A stretch of 34,298 nt of DNA from Bacteroidia bacterium (GTDB taxonomy: Bacteria; Bacteroidota; Bacteroidia; Chitinophagales; UBA2359): positions 1 through 34,298 of the forward strand of contig JAUHXA010000073.1 of the NCBI GenBank assembly GCA_030427245.1, read 5' to 3'. The position numbers and the translations under genes are program-made. The notes beneath the pieces were generated by a model that worked only from the letters and a program-made list of their open reading frames with translations, was not told the DNA's origin and did not search any database. Shown here piece by piece: positions 4,626 to 28,305 of the stretch (its first letter is position 1; each line of letters begins with the position of its first letter).

Positions 4626-5399
4626 TTACCACTCAGCCGATTCATCTACTTTATGCACCTCCGTCATTTCCTGCAATAAAGGATGCAAATATTCACTGTG
4701 AAAACCTTTTCTTCCGCCATAAACGGGAGTGATAGAAGTGGAGTCGGGGAGGTTCAATCCCGCTTTTTGCAGAAAAGATTGAAGGTTTTGAAGCCATTGT
4801 TCCTGCAATGCTTTTTCACCCATAAAAATATTTTTGGCCTGCAATTCAGCCTCAAATTCTCCTTCTTCAAAAATACCTAAGGCATAAGGAAATGCTTCAT
4901 TCAGTGCGGTTTGAAGACGAGCTTTGGCTTCTTCGGTTGCACGAGCCAACTGTTTGACCCATACATCTGCATGAAAAATATGGTATTTGATTTCACCTCG
5001 GATTTTAGCAGACAACTGCGCCAAAGGCTCAAAGGAGGAATTCATCAAGGCCTCATAGCGCAAGGCTTCAGCATAATCAAACAACAAATGTCGAATCAAA
5101 CTAAAGTCATACTCTCCAATCGGCAATTCCACCAGTTGACAACATTTGAAGTCTTTGGTAGCCCGCTGAAAACCCAATACATCAGGATTGGCTTCACCCA
5201 AATGTTCGTGCAAAATCAGATATAATTGATACGCATGACCAATTTTGTCCTGTGCCATTGACGAAAAAGCAATGTCTTCTTCAATTGTCGGCCCTAAGCC
5301 TGTCCATTCCGAATTGCGGTGTCCAATAATGAGTGCATCGTCAGCCATCTTGTAGAGTAACTCTTTGATAGCTTGCTGATTGTCTTTCTGGATTTCCAT
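4626..5399 (-). CDS. paaC: 1,2-phenylacetyl-CoA epoxidase, structural subunit PaaC
   Basis: 257 residues, close to the usual 245-260. The N-terminal half has the PaaC signature DDALIIGHRNSEWTGLGP, then EEDIAFSSMAQDKIGHAYQLY, which is a ferritin-like helical fold. PaaC pairs with the catalytic PaaA in the PaaABCE monooxygenase, which converts phenylacetyl-CoA to the ring-1,2-epoxide in aerobic phenylacetate breakdown. PaaC itself keeps the fold but not the working di-iron centre. The start ATG lies 8 nt after the paaB stop, so the two are co-transcribed. The next gene downstream is convergent, so no paaD or paaE follows here. Confidence 0.93.
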   Translation of the reverse strand: MEIQKDNQQAIKELLYKMADDALIIGHRNSEWTGLGPTIEEDIAFSSMAQDKIGHAYQLYLILHEHLGEANPDVLGFQRATKDFKCCQLVELPIGEYDFSLIRHLLFDYAEALRYEALMNSSFEPLAQLSAKIRGEIKYHIFHADVWVKQLARATEEAKARLQTALNEAFPYALGIFEEGEFEAELQAKNIFMGEKALQEQWLQNLQSFLQKAGLNLPDSTSITPVYGGRKGFHSEYLHPLLQEMTEVHKVDESAEW

Positions 5400-5407
5400 A
5401 CTTATTT

Positions 5408-5800
5408 TTATTTTTGTTCGTCTTGAGATTCTGATTTCTTTTGAGCTTTTTTGAAAGCCGTAATCTTATCGCTTACTTTGAAGCCCTGAGGCAAACGATA
5501 TTTTTTATCTCGGTTATTGTCAAACATATCTGCATCTGCAACATTCAGCGCAAAAATGTTGGTTGTTTTGACCACCCAAATATTGAAGCAAGCATCTCGC
5601 CGTCCATATTGCTCCTTTGCCAATACCAATGCCATTTCATGACCTGCGGCGTGTAGGGAACCAACATGAAGATGTTGCGCTCCTCGTTTCTTTTGGGTGA
5701 AGACCTCATAGGTTTCCCAATGTTGGTGTTGAGACGTTTCGTTTTCGGGGGTATCGCTTTGTAAATCTAAGCGATTAACTCTTGGGTCTAATGAATCCAT
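5408..5800 (-). CDS. paaB: 1,2-phenylacetyl-CoA epoxidase subunit PaaB
   Basis: 130 residues. The core HWETYEVFTQKKRGAQHLHV, then AAGHEMALVLAKEQYGRR and NIWVVKT, is diagnostic for PaaB, the small subunit that bridges PaaAC units in the phenylacetyl-CoA epoxidase. The protein is longer than E. coli PaaB because of an N-terminal extension (MDSLDPRVNRLDL) and a charged Lys/Glu/Gln-rich tail. It is the first gene of a two-gene paaB-paaC unit with its own -7-like box (5826-5833). In many genomes paaA precedes paaB; here the DNA upstream holds an unrelated lipoprotein gene on the other strand. Confidence 0.93.
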   Translation of the reverse strand: MDSLDPRVNRLDLQSDTPENETSQHQHWETYEVFTQKKRGAQHLHVGSLHAAGHEMALVLAKEQYGRRDACFNIWVVKTTNIFALNVADADMFDNNRDKKYRLPQGFKVSDKITAFKKAQKKSESQDEQK

Positions 5801-18224: not shown

Positions 18225-19391
18225 ATGTCAAATATTTATCGACTTCAACAACAAAATCAGGCTCTGACCATCCTCAATACCATTGCCCAAAACCTCAATA
18301 AAGAAGTACACCTCGAAAAAGCACTCAATTCTGCCTTGCAGCAAATCACCCAACTTTTGCAGCTCAAAACAGCGTGGATTTGGCTCTTCAATGCCGACAC
18401 AAAAATGGCATACATTGCAGCCGCTATCAATCTCCCTCCTGTTTTTGAAGAAAAACCCGAACTGCTCACTGGTTGGTGTTGGTGCATCGAAAAGTATTTG
18501 ACGGGAACGGGTAAAGAATTGAAAACGGCTTACAACATCAGCGAAATTACTTGTTCTCGCCTCGAAAACTTACGGAAAGGTACAGACGGTTTGCGCTACC
18601 ATGCGAGCGTTCCATTGATTACTCACGAACAGCAGAAATTGGGGATTTTGAATGTGGTCAGTGAAAACTCACAAGAGTTAGCTCCACAAACTTTGGAGCT
18701 TTTGCATACGATTGGAGATATGTTGAGCATTGCGATAGAACGGGCAAAACTATTTGAAAATAGCCGTCAGTTGGGCATCATGCAAGAGCGCAACCGTTTG
18801 GCGAGAGAAATTCACGATACCATTGCACAGGGTTTGACCGCCCTATCATTGAAGTTAGAAACCATTGATGCTTATCTGGAGATAGATGCCCATAATCCCA
18901 AAATACCTGAATTGGTGCGCCAAAGTTTGGAGTTGACCAAATCAAATCTTGAAGAAGCTCGCCGTTCTGTTTTAGATCTTCGAGCGACCCCGCTGCAAGA
19001 TGCAACGCTTTTGGAGGCATTGGAAAACCTTGTTGAAGAGACTATAAACAGCCACAAAATAAAAGTTGTTTTTCAGCCTTTAGGCACCTACCAAAAATTG
19101 CCGCTTCGCACCGAAATGGCTTTGTACCGTATTGCTCAAGAAGCTGTTCAGAATGTGGCCAAACACGCTGCTGCCAAGCGTTTAATTCTACAATTGAAGT
19201 ATCAAATGGATTCGGTGGTTTTGAAGATTGAAGATGATGGAGTTGGTTTTGACGTTGCCTCTAATTTGATTTCCTCACAAGGTTTTGGTTTGTTGGGTAT
19301 TAGCGAACGGGTGAAACTACTGAAGGGAAAAATGGAATTGAAGAGTGAGTTGGGGGTTGGGACGGTTTTGAAAGTTGAAATTGCTGAATAG
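18225..19391 (+). CDS. GAF-domain sensor histidine kinase, NarL/DegS type
   Basis: 388 residues with no membrane span, so probably cytosolic. A GAF domain covers about residues 15-170 (LNTIAQNLNKEVHLEKALNS, through GILNVVSENSQEL). The HisKA_3 dimerisation helix follows with the H-box ERNRLAREIHDTIAQGL (phospho-acceptor His197, next to Asp). The HATPase_c domain has the N-box YRIAQEAVQNVAKHA and G-boxes EDDGVGFD and GFGLLGISERV, so all kinase boxes are present. Its partner should be a LuxR-type response regulator, but none is adjacent; the next gene is a DNA methylase. The GAF ligand is unknown. Two cysteines, in WCWCIEKYL and ITCSRL, lie in the GAF domain and could bind a cofactor (inference). 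Confidence 0.9.
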   Translation: MSNIYRLQQQNQALTILNTIAQNLNKEVHLEKALNSALQQITQLLQLKTAWIWLFNADTKMAYIAAAINLPPVFEEKPELLTGWCWCIEKYLTGTGKELKTAYNISEITCSRLENLRKGTDGLRYHASVPLITHEQQKLGILNVVSENSQELAPQTLELLHTIGDMLSIAIERAKLFENSRQLGIMQERNRLAREIHDTIAQGLTALSLKLETIDAYLEIDAHNPKIPELVRQSLELTKSNLEEARRSVLDLRATPLQDATLLEALENLVEETINSHKIKVVFQPLGTYQKLPLRTEMALYRIAQEAVQNVAKHAAAKRLILQLKYQMDSVVLKIEDDGVGFDVASNLISSQGFGLLGISERVKLLKGKMELKSELGVGTVLKVEIAE

Positions 19392-23491: not shown

Positions 23492-25561
23492 TTACCAATC
23501 CAATAACTCTCCAATCGCTTTCGCTACCTTTTTTGCATTTGGTAACATCGCTTGTTCTAAAACCGTATTCATCGGCACAGCGGGAACATTTGCTGCTCCG
23601 AGGGTAGCAACAGGCGCATCTAAATAGGTGAAACATTGTTGAGAAATGCGTCCTGCCAAACTTTCTGCAAAGGAGTTTTCGAGAGGCTCTTCGGTCAAAA
23701 CCAACACTTTGTTGTGTTTTTTGGCGGCTGCAAAAATCATTTCTTCATCCAAAGGCTTCAAAGTGCGTAAGTCAATGATTTCTACCGAACCTTCAAATTT
23801 TTTGGAAGCAGTTTTTGCCCAATACACACCCATCCCGTAGGTAATGACCGCCACGGTATTACCCCTCTTCAATTGTTCTTCACTCGCTGACTGAGCTATG
23901 CGAGCTTTGCCCAAAGGAATTACATAGTCTTCACTCGGCTCAATGGTTTTTGCATCGGCTGTACCCATGACCTTGCTCCAATACAAACCTTTGTGTTCAA
24001 ATAATACAACGGGATTGGGGTCTAAAAATGCCGCCTTCAATAGTCCTTTCATATCTGCTGCATTGGAAGGGAAGACGATTTTGATGCCAGGAATATTCAA
24101 AATACTGGATTCAATACAAGCAGAATGATAAGGCCCTCCACCACCATAAGCACCCGCAGGCACACGAATCAAGGTCTGTACAGGGAATTTACCTGCCGAC
24201 AAATAGCAAGATTTGGCGATTTCTGTCACCAACTGATTCATACTCGGCCAAAAGTAATCTGCAAACTGTATTTCGACAATCGGCTTCAAACCTACTGCCG
24301 ACATACCAGATGTTGAACCAACGATATAAGCTTCTTGAATTGCCGTATTGAAAACACGTTCATCTCCATATTTTTGAGCCAAAGTTGCCGCTTCTCTAAA
24401 GACTCCTCCCAAACGTCCCCCTACATCTTGTCCATAAAACAAAGCTTCAGGGTAAGTTCTTAATATTTCGTCCATTGCGTACAAAGCCGCATCTACCATC
24501 AACACTTTTCGACCTCCTTCTGGAGAGCGTTCTCCTTTTTCTTTTGTTACAGGAGTAGGTGCATAAACGTGTTCTAAAAGGGTTTCGGGGTCGGGATTTG
24601 CAGCCATTTCTGACTTTTCAAAGGTTTCCTCTATTTCAATAAACACCTGTTTTTCGATTTTGCTCAATGTATGCTCATCAAAACCTAATTCTACGAGTTG
24701 TTGGTGAAGTTTAACTATCGGGTCTTGTAAGGCATGTTCCTCCAAGTCGTCTCGATACCATTCCTTGCGAACACCCGAAGTGTGGTGGCCCAAAAGTGGA
24801 ACAGTGGCATGTAAAACGATAGGACTACGATGTTCTCGAATATGGTTCATACATTTTTGAACCGCCTCATAACTCGCAAAAAAATCGCTCCCGTCCACAC
24901 TGATTCGCTTCAATCCTTTGAACCCACCTGCATATTCATAGGCATTCATACTTCGGGTTTCTTCCCCCGTTGCCGAAATGCCCCAATCGTTGTCTTGCAC
25001 CAAATACAAAATCGGTAACTGCTTCAATGCGGCAAACTGCCACGCCTCTGATATTTCGCCCTCAGTGACAGAACCATCTCCCAATGAACAAACAACCACT
25101 GTTTTTGCGCCATTTTCGACCAAACCTTGTTGTTCTTTGTATTGAATCCCTTGTGCTATGCCTGTTGTCGGAATGACTTGCATTCCTGTGGCACTCGATT
25201 GCTGAATAATTTTGGGATATCTCTCGTCTTTGGAGGAAGGGTGGGAGTAATAGGCTCGTCCTGCAGTGAAGGGGTCGTCTGCTTTTGCCAACAATTGCAA
25301 CATCAAACTATATGCTTCAAAACCAGCTCCTAGTAAAAGGGCATCATCTCTATAATAGGGACTTACATAATCGTAACTTTTGAGTTGGAGTCCTAAGGCA
25401 AGCTGAATAGCTTCATGCCCTCTTGCGGTGGCGTGAACATACTTACAGGTGTAGCGGTGTTTTTCGTAAGTTTCCGCCATAGCCTTTATCTTCTGCATCA
25501 ACTCGTAAGCCTTCAAAAGTACTTTTTCATCTATCTTAAACGGAGCTTCAGTTTCGAGCAT
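23492..25561 (-). CDS. fused E1 alpha-beta subunit of a 2-oxoacid (branched-chain type) dehydrogenase
   Basis: 689 residues fuse two normally separate subunits. E1-alpha (about 1-330) holds the thiamine diphosphate site: GDG at 161-163 with Asn191 (GDGSVTEGEISEAWQFAA through VQDN) and YYRDDALLLGAG at about 69-80. E1-beta (about 350-689) contains ALYAMDEIL, FYGQDVGGRLGGVF, GLKPIVEIQFADYFWP, the RVPAGAYGGGGPYHS segment and the C-terminal VLTEEPLENSFAE region. It decarboxylates 2-oxoacids and hands acyl groups to an E2 lipoyl enzyme. The fusion and alpha motifs resemble Bacteroidota 'dehydrogenase E1 component' of branched-chain type, but pyruvate is possible. No E2 or E3 gene is beside it. Confidence 0.9.
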   Translation of the reverse strand: MLETEAPFKIDEKVLLKAYELMQKIKAMAETYEKHRYTCKYVHATARGHEAIQLALGLQLKSYDYVSPYYRDDALLLGAGFEAYSLMLQLLAKADDPFTAGRAYYSHPSSKDERYPKIIQQSSATGMQVIPTTGIAQGIQYKEQQGLVENGAKTVVVCSLGDGSVTEGEISEAWQFAALKQLPILYLVQDNDWGISATGEETRSMNAYEYAGGFKGLKRISVDGSDFFASYEAVQKCMNHIREHRSPIVLHATVPLLGHHTSGVRKEWYRDDLEEHALQDPIVKLHQQLVELGFDEHTLSKIEKQVFIEIEETFEKSEMAANPDPETLLEHVYAPTPVTKEKGERSPEGGRKVLMVDAALYAMDEILRTYPEALFYGQDVGGRLGGVFREAATLAQKYGDERVFNTAIQEAYIVGSTSGMSAVGLKPIVEIQFADYFWPSMNQLVTEIAKSCYLSAGKFPVQTLIRVPAGAYGGGGPYHSACIESSILNIPGIKIVFPSNAADMKGLLKAAFLDPNPVVLFEHKGLYWSKVMGTADAKTIEPSEDYVIPLGKARIAQSASEEQLKRGNTVAVITYGMGVYWAKTASKKFEGSVEIIDLRTLKPLDEEMIFAAAKKHNKVLVLTEEPLENSFAESLAGRISQQCFTYLDAPVATLGAANVPAVPMNTVLEQAMLPNAKKVAKAIGELLDW

Positions 25562-25590
25562 AAACTTTGGTTGTTTTAGGAGTTTGATAG

Positions 25591-25666
25591 CAAAAATACG
25601 TAATTTTCACGCACTTTAACAACGTGTACTAACAATTGTTAGTTTTCTCTGTTTGTGCTAACTTTG
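25591..25666. promoter_or_regulatory. divergent promoters flanking a perfect 16-bp palindrome (E1 / araC)
   Basis: A perfect palindrome ACTAACAATTGTTAGT lies at 25628-25643. The E1-side box TATTTTTG (minus strand, 25591-25598) and the araC-side box TAACTTTG (25659-25666) are both exact TAnnTTTG matches. The palindrome overlaps the expected -33 region of the araC promoter and lies just upstream of the E1 one. It is well placed as a shared operator. Confidence 0.6.
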
Positions 25667-25694
25667 GATAGAATACTTCAAAATCCCTTCAAAA

Positions 25695-26573
25695 ATGCTT
25701 GTTGTTCCAAATAAACTATATGACGAATCATTTGTGGAAGTTCTTTATCGAGACAAACATTTTGCGGTTTTGAAGAAACACATTTATCAGCCTGTATTGA
25801 ATAGACAAAGTTATGTGGCGATGCATGCTGTATCTTTCGTTCTGAATGGTGAACAACGAATTGCAGAAAATGATACGCAAGTATTGTGTATTAAAAGCGG
25901 CGAAATCGGCTTTGTCAAAAAAGGGATTTATACAGTGACGGACTTGTTTTCGGGTAAAAATGGTTTTCAATCCTATCATTTGTATTTTGACGATGAATTG
26001 TTGAATGATGTCCTTCAATTGTTTCCCAAACCAAATCAAAAACGGGCTTTCCAACCGTGCTTAAAAATTCCTTCGAGCTTTGCGATTAGCCAATACTTCA
26101 ATTCTATAAGACATTTGGCTCACTCCTTAGAACAATGTGGGAAACAGCTTTTTAGAATCAAGTTGATGGAGTTTTTGGCTTTGACCATTGCAGAAAATGA
26201 AGACCAAAATATTTTGGCTCAACTGAGGAGTTTTACTTACCAAACTCCTCAAAACCTTCGTGCATTTATGAGCGAAAACTTCGAGAAACCTTTTTCGGTG
26301 GAAGATTATGCTTATTTGACGGGCAGAAGCTTGTCTTCTTTTCGGAGGGAATTCAAGGCAAAGTTTGGAATTTCTCCTCGAAAATGGGTTACACAAGAAC
26401 GCTTGAAAAAGGCAAAGGAAATTTTATTGAAGGATAAGAAAAGCGTGGCAGATACAGCTTATCTAGTTGGTTATGAAAATGTTTCTCATTTTATTAGTGC
26501 CTTCAAAAAATTCTATGGCTATACTCCTAATCAAATCCGTAACTCTACCGATTCTGACCTTTTGCTTCAATAA
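25695..26573 (+). CDS. AraC-family transcriptional regulator
   Basis: 292 residues. The N-terminal about 180 form a sensor half with a cupin-like beta pattern (QPVLNRQSYVAMHAVSFVLNGEQRI, LCIKSGEIGFVKKGIYTV). The C-terminal 100 contain both helix-turn-helix units: SVEDYAYLTGRSLSSFRREFK, then the classic SVADTAYLVGYENVSHFISAFKKFYGYTPNQIR. The ligand is not predictable. It is divergent from the E1 gene, sharing 133 bp that contain a palindrome and both promoters, and it lies upstream of a hydroxyisobutyrate-dehydrogenase-like gene. Regulation of either is plausible (inference). AraC members often bind direct repeats rather than palindromes, so the palindrome may belong to another protein. Confidence 0.92.
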   Translation: MLVVPNKLYDESFVEVLYRDKHFAVLKKHIYQPVLNRQSYVAMHAVSFVLNGEQRIAENDTQVLCIKSGEIGFVKKGIYTVTDLFSGKNGFQSYHLYFDDELLNDVLQLFPKPNQKRAFQPCLKIPSSFAISQYFNSIRHLAHSLEQCGKQLFRIKLMEFLALTIAENEDQNILAQLRSFTYQTPQNLRAFMSENFEKPFSVEDYAYLTGRSLSSFRREFKAKFGISPRKWVTQERLKKAKEILLKDKKSVADTAYLVGYENVSHFISAFKKFYGYTPNQIRNSTDSDLLLQ

Positions 26574-26652
26574 AGTGAGCGAAATTCGATACTTTGACTG
26601 ATTTTGGGTATTTCTTTTATCAAACCAAGCGTAGTTTTGCGACTGGTAATTT

Positions 26653-26787
26653 GGTTGGTAAATAAGCAAAAGTCTATAAGTAAGGGTAAAAAAATAACTC
26701 CTCGTTTTCTTTTGCTAACATACCCCATCCCTTTTCAAAAGGGGAATATTGGTCGATGAGTTATTTTTTCTTTTTTACTAACCAACC
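26653..26787. repeat. large imperfect inverted repeat with nested hairpin
   Basis: Nested pairs are visible: GGTTGGT (about 26653-26659) with ACCAACC (about 26780-26786), AAAAAATAACTC (26689-26700) with GAGTTATTTTTT (26758-26769), and a 7-bp core CCCTTTT/AAAAGGG (26729-26735 with 26737-26743). It lies between araC and the dehydrogenase gene. It may be a transcription terminator for araC or a degenerate MITE-like element. No other feature is seen in the 244-bp gap. Confidence 0.5.
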
Positions 26788-26817
26788 TTTTCTAACAGAA
26801 TTCAAAAACAACACATC

Positions 26818-27690
26818 ATGACAAAAATAACTTTTATTGGTTTGGGAATCATGGGCAGTAGAATGGCGAAAAACTTGCTTCAAAAAGGGGGAGACATAGA
26901 ATTGACGGTTTTCAATCGTTCAGTTGAAGCTGCAAAACCATTGCAGAAAATAGGCGCAACTATCGCTAAATCTGCGATTGAAGGAGTCAAAGAAGCAGAC
27001 ATCGTTTTTACCATGCTTTCTACACCCGAAGTAGTTGAAGCTGTTGCGATGGGGGATAGTGGGTTTTTGTCTAATATGAAAGAAAATGCTCTTTGGGTCG
27101 ATTGCTCTACGGTCAATCCTTCTTTTTCATTGCGAGTTAATAAAGAAGCGCAAGAAAGAGGTGTAAGGTTTGTTGACGCACCTGTTGCAGGAACGAAACC
27201 ACATGCGGAAAATGCACAATTGGCATTTTTTGTGGGAGGTGAAACAACAGTCCTTGCTGAAATTGAGCCTTTTTTGAAGGCAATGGGAACAACTATATTG
27301 CATATTGGAGAGATCGGCAAAGGAGCAGCCTACAAAACCTTGATTAATTCAATGTTGGCGCAATCTATGCTGATTTTTTCGGAAACAGTCGTATTAGGTG
27401 AAAAAATGGGCTTATCTAAAGAATTTTTACTTCAAGCTTTGCCCAAAGCCCCTGTAATTGCACCTTTTACTCAGTTCAAAGCCAAAATGATTCAGGAAGG
27501 AAATTATGAGGTACAGTTTCCTTTGGAGTGGATGCACAAAGATTTGCGGTTGGTCTCTGAGAGTGCTGCTGAGTTAAACCACCCTTTGCAGATGGCGAAT
27601 TTGGCAAAAGATATCTATGGTAAGGCGAACGAAGCAGGTTTAGGCAGAAAAGATTTTGCTGCGATTCATGAGTTTGTGAGTAAAGGTTAA
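26818..27690 (+). CDS. beta-hydroxyacid dehydrogenase, 3-hydroxyisobutyrate dehydrogenase/GLYR family
   Basis: 290 residues, standard length. The N-terminal Rossmann fold starts with FIGLGIMGSRMAKNLL (GxGxxG, 8-13) and then TVFNRS, whose Asn-Arg suggests NADP(H). The substrate-binding motif is FVDAPVAGTKPHAENAQLAFFVGG, and the catalytic Lys sits in GKGAAYKTLINSMLAQSM. The C-terminal domain ends LGRKDFAAIHEFV. Family members oxidise 3-hydroxyisobutyrate (valine degradation) or reduce glyoxylate and succinic semialdehyde; the exact substrate is open. Its neighbours (fused E1 and AraC) would fit branched-chain amino-acid breakdown, though this is inference. Its stop is 3 bp from that of the convergent FAH gene. 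Confidence 0.88.
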   Translation: MTKITFIGLGIMGSRMAKNLLQKGGDIELTVFNRSVEAAKPLQKIGATIAKSAIEGVKEADIVFTMLSTPEVVEAVAMGDSGFLSNMKENALWVDCSTVNPSFSLRVNKEAQERGVRFVDAPVAGTKPHAENAQLAFFVGGETTVLAEIEPFLKAMGTTILHIGEIGKGAAYKTLINSMLAQSMLIFSETVVLGEKMGLSKEFLLQALPKAPVIAPFTQFKAKMIQEGNYEVQFPLEWMHKDLRLVSESAAELNHPLQMANLAKDIYGKANEAGLGRKDFAAIHEFVSKG

Positions 27691-27693
27691 AGC

Positions 27694-28305
27694 TTATTTT
27701 ATATTACACTCCAACAACTTCTGATCCCCCAAAAAACCTTCTAATTTGTCTCCAATTACTACGGGACCAACTCCAGCAGGTGTACCTGTAAATATCAAGT
27801 CACCAATTTGTAGGGTGAAAAACTGTGAAATGTAGGTAATCAAATAATCGAAGTCAAAAATGAGATCTTTGGTGTTCCCTATTTGTACGGCTTCTCCATT
27901 TTTGGTCATCGAAAAATCAATATTGTTCACATCGCCTATATCTTCAATAGGTAACCATTTGCCGATTGGAGCAGAACCATCAAAACCTTTGGCGAGTAAC
28001 CACGGATGACCTTTGGCTTTGAGTTGGTTTTGGATGTCACGAGCCGTAAAATCAATGCCCAAAGTGATTTCATTGTAGTATTTGTGGGCAAATTTTGGAG
28101 CAATATATTTGCCTAATTTGCAGACTTTGAGCACTATTTCGATTTCGTGATGGATGTCTTTGGAGAAGTCGGGATAGAAAAATGGGCGATTTTCTCGCAC
28201 CAATGCCGTTTGTGGTTTGGAGAAAACAAGCGGTTTTTTGGGAACAGGATTACTTAATTCTTTAGCGTGTTCGATGTAGTTTCTACCGATACAGAAAATC
28301 TTCAT
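27694..28305 (-). CDS. fumarylacetoacetate hydrolase (FAH) family protein
   Basis: 203 residues, the short YcgM-type. It opens MKIFCIGRNYIEHAKEL and has the metal-binding acidic residues in HHEIEIVLKV and ITLGIDFTARD. KGHPWLLAKGFDGSAPIG and the C-terminal FTGTPAGVGPVVIGDKL are the standard FAH signatures. Members hydrolyse or decarboxylate acylpyruvates, oxaloacetate or fumarylpyruvate; the substrate is not fixed. It begins 18 bp after the pth stop, so pth-FAH is one unit. It is convergent with the dehydrogenase gene, with only 3 bp between stops and no terminator between them. Confidence 0.9.
   Translation of the reverse strand: MKIFCIGRNYIEHAKELSNPVPKKPLVFSKPQTALVRENRPFFYPDFSKDIHHEIEIVLKVCKLGKYIAPKFAHKYYNEITLGIDFTARDIQNQLKAKGHPWLLAKGFDGSAPIGKWLPIEDIGDVNNIDFSMTKNGEAVQIGNTKDLIFDFDYLITYISQFFTLQIGDLIFTGTPAGVGPVVIGDKLEGFLGDQKLLECNIK

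Follow-up and report, generated by a model that had tools for sequence, protein, structure and literature searches.

A palindrome between divergent 2-oxoacid dehydrogenase E1 and araC genes of a Bacteroidia genome is a candidate PaaR-type operator

The window analysed here, a stretch of 34,298 nucleotides taken as a whole, belongs to the 7.58-Mb genome of a member of the Bacteroidia (G000). Within it, the gene for a fused 2-oxoacid dehydrogenase E1 and a gene for an AraC-family regulator diverge from an intergenic gap of 133 bp (25562-25694), in which a perfect 16-bp palindrome lies between two predicted promoters. The features of the region are as follows.

23492-25561, minus strand: fused alpha/beta E1 of a 2-oxoacid dehydrogenase complex, 689 aa (Pfam E1_dh, Transket_pyr and Transketolase_C)
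25598-25591, minus strand: -7 box TATTTTTG of the predicted E1 promoter, an exact TAnnTTTG
25622-25620, minus strand: TTG, candidate -33 element of the E1 promoter, 21 nt ahead of the E1 -7 box
25628-25643, no strand: perfect palindrome ACTAACAATTGTTAGT, candidate operator of PaaR type (TetR family), from its sequence and a matrix score of 22.93 bits
25636-25638, plus strand: TTG within the palindrome, candidate -33 element of the araC promoter, 20 nt ahead of the araC -7 box
25659-25666, plus strand: -7 box TAACTTTG of the predicted araC promoter, an exact TAnnTTTG
25695-26573, plus strand: AraC-family regulator with an ExsA_N-like N-terminal domain (Pfam HTH_18 and ExsA_N)
26818-27690, plus strand: beta-hydroxyacid dehydrogenase, the partner of araC (NAD_binding_2 and NAD_binding_11)
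27694-28305, minus strand: FAH-family hydrolase (Pfam FAA_hydrolase), followed on the minus strand by pth, which was assigned by eye

The palindrome ends 66 bp from the start of E1 and 51 bp from that of araC, whose product has homologues alignable from residue 1. The -33 candidates of both promoters were judged by the customary spacing between -33 and -7 elements. In flavobacteria the -7 box recognized with sigma-A is TAnnTTTG (PMC9723704); such boxes are frequent, the whole window having 25 plus-strand and 38 minus-strand copies. The initial annotation had described a 16-bp palindrome between opposed exact -7 boxes, overlapping the likely -33 region of araC. That description is accurate: the palindrome is exact and self-complementary, both boxes are present, and the TTG at 25636-25638 falls inside it.

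A palindrome of this length could be a functionless product of chance. Dinucleotide-shuffled versions of the window contain a mean of 0.87 perfect palindromes of at least 16 bp, and 118 of 200 shuffles contain one or more. At the scale of the window the bare palindrome is thus unremarkable and constitutes weak evidence; its importance lies in its sequence. Against an origin by chance, a palindrome of at least 16 bp appeared in only 125 of 20000 shuffles of the 133-bp gap itself (about 0.6%). A second perfect palindrome in the window, CCAAAATATTTTGG at 26204-26217, lies within the araC gene and is probably a chance occurrence.

A genome-wide search found the exact 16-mer only once in G000, with no copy at one mismatch and eight at two mismatches. 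Five of the eight copies at two mismatches are intergenic, several of them adjoining catabolic genes. A relaxed form, RCTARC-N4-GYTAGY, was derived from these near copies and occurs exactly six times in G000. Because its form was taken from the near copies of the palindrome, counts confined to G000 involve some circularity; the evidence from TetR-paaA loci and from the matrix, described below, comes from outside G000. All six exact copies are intergenic, as against 6 of 26 copies with one mismatch (Fisher p 0.001); a motif copy at window position 18667 falls in the ORF at 18225-19391. The reversed-control pattern is commoner in G000 than the motif (12 vs 6 copies), and the motif total is not above chance. 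Since the reversed controls are the more numerous, counts of motif or palindrome are uninformative, and it is the placement of the sites, the function of their neighbours and their presence in relatives that carry the argument.

The five sites of G000 outside the window are placed as follows.

Contig C39: 80 bp before PaaA (451.8, over the NCBIfam cutoff of 280)
Before a PaaH-like dehydrogenase that scores below its cutoffs: gap of 32 bp
Before IcmF (1745, over the cutoff of 1500): gap of 19 bp
C26:55317-55332: 150 bp before GltB (1712, over the cutoff of 1047)
C139:9016: close to the contig end, with no clear gene

The divergent neighbour at the paaA site is an agmatinase (195.1, over a cutoff of 174.3). 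The PaaH-like set continues with a thiolase (600 vs a cutoff of 605 for 3-oxoadipyl-CoA thiolase) and then PaaZ (883.5, over 562.8). Judged by these neighbours, the window site is one of a few similar candidate sites in G000 that precede predicted genes of phenylacetate and acyl-CoA catabolism. The palindrome had been put forward as a strong operator candidate, and that view is supported.

Some features of these contigs deserve separate mention. GltB, a glutamate synthase, would be an unexpected target for a phenylacetate regulator, given its site of 23.5 bits. The short contig C139 bears a second motif-like site at C139:6725 (16.6 bits, compared with 13.6 bits for C139:9016); one of the pair lies at an ORF end and the other near the contig end. 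The window itself contains paaC (4626-5399, minus strand) and paaB (5408-5800, minus strand), both of which pass their NCBIfam cutoffs, at a distance from paaA on C39. No PaaR-type site was found upstream of this paaB-paaC pair, the best match being 8/12.

The motif recurs among relatives. At least one exact copy is present in 18 of the 20 genomes of the family, G000 included, and 36 of the 38 sites in the 19 relatives were examined (G007:C259 and G012:C367 were left out). Eight of the 36 lie inside long ORFs of at least 240 aa; a ninth, in L138, lies in a 112-aa ORF taken as spurious. Five sites precede a TetR gene (L126, L127, L138, L143 and L144), with paaA next in four of these. Four others lie 35-133 bp upstream of phenylalanine 4-hydroxylase-like genes (L118, L123, L128 and L142); only the L128 product was scanned, and it passes TIGR01267 (271.1 over 264.75). 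Exact sites at these genes would place phenylalanine breakdown under the same regulator. Acyl-CoA dehydrogenase-like genes follow the motif in L135, where the product was scanned and reached no cutoff, and in L140, where it was assigned by eye. In L113 the motif lies 212 bp ahead of PaaE (433.6 over 420.8), and in L129 it lies 29 bp ahead of an 832-aa E1-like gene. The remaining sites have no connectable gene.

With the TetR protein of L143 (P0001) as query, matches were obtained in 13 of 20 family genomes at 1e-20 and in 120 of 396 genomes of the order at 1e-40. Thirty-two loci, a non-random sample made up of the 19 best matches in the order and the 13 in the family, were scanned over 150 bp upstream plus 60 bp. 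The TetR gene adjoins paaA in 23 of them, and all 23 have a site: 14 match at 12/12 core positions, eight at 11/12 and one at 10/12, starting 15-41 bp ahead of the extrapolated TetR start. Of the nine loci in which TetR does not adjoin paaA, one (L156, 12/12) has a site, and the other eight reach 8/12 at best. The reversed-pattern control at these loci has a maximum of 9.

A weight matrix was built from 14 distinct TetR-paaA sites, none of them from G000, and reads C[TG]AAC[GA]NN[CT]GTT[AC]G. The window palindrome scores 22.93 bits, within the range of the training sites (19.9-25.0; 18.6-24.7 on leave-one-out), and the next-best match in the window scores 9.45. The sequence CTAACAATTGTTAG fits CNAAC-N4-GTTNG, with A and T at the two inner positions, where they account for roughly one third of the training letters. 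Nothing in 6 Mb of simulated sequence scored as high as the palindrome. The other G000 sites score 23.5 bits (gltB), 21.3 (paaH-like set), 18.8 (icmF), 14.5 (paaA) and 13.6 (C139:9016), the last two being undistinguished by score alone, as about 1.3 chance sites per Mb are expected at 14 bits or more. These scores, together with the sites at two E1 relatives described below, make a functionless chance palindrome highly improbable, the window-scale expectation and the relatives' copies inside ORFs notwithstanding.

The conserved linkage of TetR gene, site and paaA directs attention to the TetR proteins of G000. At 1e-20 the query has a single match there, C53:11531-12085 (P0002), a protein of 196 aa with TetR_N (54.2 over 24) and TetR_C_24 domains and with 58% identity over 184 residues to the paaA-linked TetR of G016. 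No site was found in the 150 bp upstream of the gene, and no paa neighbour in the stretch inspected. We hold with considerable confidence that the palindrome is the operator of a PaaR-like TetR-family repressor, for which the C53 protein is the candidate. Several findings weigh against this reading: the motif total is at the chance level, ten of 14 E1 relatives in the family lack the site, the TetR gene of G000 is unlinked and siteless, and the G000 paaA site is weak (14.5 bits). To these are added the scarcity of good matches at E1 loci outside the family (two of 22 at 11/12), the lack of a site at paaB-paaC of the window, the exact copies in relatives that fall within ORFs, and the A and T that replace the G and C of the Thermus operator beside the centre.

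It is conceivable, though unlikely, that a different TetR-type acyl-CoA regulator, a sensor of fatty-acid or branched-chain acyl-CoAs rather than the C53 protein, acts at the palindrome in response to a signal other than phenylacetyl-CoA. Such a regulator would suit the targets beyond phenylacetate (icmF, gltB, the acyl-CoA dehydrogenases and the E1 genes), and the C53 protein is encoded away from paa genes, has as its best PDB match an unnamed TetR (3vpr) and gives weak NCBIfam matches, FadR-like among them. The site accompanies the TetR gene at all 23 loci where that gene adjoins paaA, which speaks for the PaaR-like repressor instead, as do the single G000 match to the TetR query and the inclusion of PaaA and PaaZ among the targets.

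E1 is the likely target of the operator. E1 was found in 301 genomes, and 37 upstream regions were scanned, including that of the window (the fragment L068 was left out). Among the 14 family relatives with upstream sequence, two match at 11/12 within 250 bp, two at 10/12 and ten at no more than 9/12. The best two are L057 (ACAAACAAACGTTAGT, 18.1 bits) and L063 (ACTAGTGAACGTTAGT, 13.3 bits); L065 and L066, from one genus, have sites of 11.2 bits at 10/12. Two relatives at 11/12 would arise by chance with a Poisson probability of 7e-5, at the G000 rate and 200 bp per gene. At orthologous loci the site is conserved in part: two E1 orthologues carry it clearly and two weakly. In L063, L065 and L066 it is FAH rather than araC that lies upstream of E1, so the site goes with E1 in the absence of araC, though not in all relatives. 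The icmF site is not counted as conserved: upstream sequence could be scanned for 13 IcmF relatives (not for L217-L219, which lack a usable start), of which two match at 10/12 (8.2 and 10.1 bits) and the others at no more than 9/12.

Of 22 E1 loci in the order but outside the family, two match at 11/12, L186 and L201, both of family f81. They have a common upstream sequence, ACTAACTACCGGTAGT (12.6 bits), 68-71 bp ahead of where the E1 alignment begins, which may be a degenerate site of PaaR type or another operator altogether; in both genomes a TetR-paaA unit also carries a site at 12/12 (L223 and L224). One further E1 locus outside the family matches at 10/12, where the reversed control also reaches 10.

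The position of the palindrome between araC and E1, covering the likely -33 element of araC, raises the possibility that it is the operator of the divergent AraC protein and that AraC controls both genes, as divergent regulators often control their neighbours. AraC-family proteins usually bind longer, asymmetric half-sites, which a 16-bp palindrome does not resemble. Of the regions upstream of araC homologues, 35 could be used (L082 lacks upstream sequence). None of these matches at 11/12 or better, and two match at 10/12; the homologues are only 29-39% identical, and this result by itself is weak. The site occurs, moreover, at E1, paaA, paaZ-set, icmF and TetR genes that have no adjoining araC. 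An AraC operator was accordingly rejected, the site being absent at 11/12 from the 35 regions at araC homologues and present at E1 and paa genes; we regard this reading, the one first suggested, as very unlikely and not supported.

The araC gene and its partner may have a history of their own. An araC gene and the same kind of dehydrogenase adjoin in 17 of 36 AraC-homologue loci, and E1 lies beside araC in none of the 36, within flanks of at most 1.5 kb (for L082 and L092 the upstream flank is short or missing). In L060, L063, L064, L065 and L066, FAH is the immediate upstream neighbour of E1, co-oriented with it and with no araC in between. These arrangements are most simply explained by an insertion of the araC pair, in the lineage of the window, between FAH and E1. 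The araC-dehydrogenase pair (25695-27690) looks like a mobile unit of two or three genes with a signal of its own. In L017 an extra ORF, SRPBCC-like by eye, lies between the two genes. A search of genome contigs with AraC found five weak relatives.

In Pseudomonas, the AraC-family regulator MmsR is associated with mmsAB and a 3-hydroxyisobutyrate dehydrogenase. The window resembles this system in that araC adjoins a beta-hydroxyacid dehydrogenase gene; it differs in that the dehydrogenase falls below the HIBADH cutoff and the palindrome is not tied to araC homologues. The dehydrogenase scores 196.8 against the HIBADH model TIGR01692, with a cutoff of 291.6, and its best PDB matches are 3pef and 3pdu. 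The gene had been called 3-hydroxyisobutyrate-dehydrogenase-like; by this score it is not a curated HIBADH, and a valine route through 3-hydroxyisobutyrate is therefore not supported. A valine module of that kind was rejected on the same evidence. From the proposal of a regulated branched-chain 2-oxoacid module there survives the idea that E1 probably belongs to a regulated catabolic set, while the HIBADH valine route does not.

The proposed operator matches the published operator of Thermus PaaR. In Thermus thermophilus, PaaR (TTHA0973) has an operator given as CNAACGNNCGTTNG from homology and as AACnAACGTTnGTT from selection in vitro, and its loss raises expression of paaABCD and of a bifunctional aldehyde dehydrogenase/enoyl-CoA hydratase gene (PMC6651687). 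Its effector is phenylacetyl-CoA, according to the title of a paper cited in PMC9493321. The likeness to G000 extends to the TetR family, to an operator (CNAACGNNCGTTNG) equal in length and spacing to the window site, and to paa genes and a PaaZ-type gene as targets (PMC6651687); a TetR gene like that for Thermus PaaR adjoins paaA in relatives of G000. In contrast to Thermus, the window site has A and T where the Thermus operator has G and C beside the centre, the TetR gene of G000 lies apart from paa genes and lacks a site, and E1, icmF and gltB would be added targets.

In Burkholderia, PaaR acts as a negative regulator of TetR type; control requires an inverted repeat in the paaA promoter, and similar repeats are present at paaH and paaZ (PMC2770484). 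B. cenocepacia PaaR (BCAL0210) shares with the G000 candidate its TetR type, inverted repeats before paaA, paaH and paaZ, and scattered paa clusters (PMC2770484, PMC9493321). Its 15-bp repeat, ACCGACCGGTCGGTT, differs from CTAAC-N4-GTTAG (PMC9493321), and the available sections of PMC2770484 and PMC9493321 name no E1 target for it. A 2026 survey places PaaR with paa genes in Flavobacteriia (PMC13186573); the accessible part of that paper neither gives an operator sequence nor names E1 or IcmF as a target. Among literature titles and the opening lines of abstracts, a scope outside which most subscription journals fall, none described PaaR control of E1, IcmF or GltB. Sites of PaaR type are thus known as a kind, and what G000 appears to add are the putative targets E1, IcmF and GltB and an unlinked regulator.

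From the sequences we infer a scheme that takes in TetR binding, the direction of control, the inducer, the part of E1 in its pathway and the co-regulation of araC. In the absence of inducer, a TetR dimer would occupy 25628-25643, over the -33 element of araC and abutting that of E1. Bound TetR would keep E1 expression low, and perhaps that of araC and the partner dehydrogenase as well; araC may be co-repressed by virtue of the operator's position. An acyl-CoA inducer, presumably phenylacetyl-CoA by analogy with PaaR of Thermus and Burkholderia, would release TetR, and E1 would then be made alongside PaaA, the PaaZ set and IcmF during breakdown of amino acids or aromatic compounds. The operator very probably ties E1 to the phenylacetate catabolic gene set. 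These comparisons provide a candidate pair of operator and repressor for phenylacetate catabolism in Bacteroidia and would assign to a specific regulon a fused E1 that is widespread and loosely annotated. AraC, the obvious candidate by its position, is probably not the right regulator.

A catabolic role for E1 seems plausible. Among proteins of solved structure, the E1 protein is most similar to 2-oxoisovalerate dehydrogenase beta subunits (3e-56), followed closely by a pyruvate dehydrogenase (2.4e-52); the alpha part matches a Thermus 2-oxo acid dehydrogenase (3.6e-27) and branched-chain enzymes (1.4e-24) ahead of pyruvate dehydrogenases (3e-16). Judged by these solved relatives the sequence leans toward the branched-chain enzymes, and it reaches no NCBIfam cutoff. 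A speculative and rather doubtful extension is that a PaaR-type repressor took over E1 as an enzyme that makes its inducer, phenylpyruvate (from phenylalanine) being converted directly to phenylacetyl-CoA, and isobutyryl-CoA from valine passing to IcmF. If so, one acyl-CoA sensor would govern the breakdown of phenylalanine, valine and aromatic compounds, in a self-reinforcing loop.

A paralogue of E1 was also encountered. In L129 (G013:C206), a fused E1-like protein of 832 aa is accompanied by a site of 22.8 bits at position 2530, 29 bp upstream, which faces an aldehyde dehydrogenase-like ORF.
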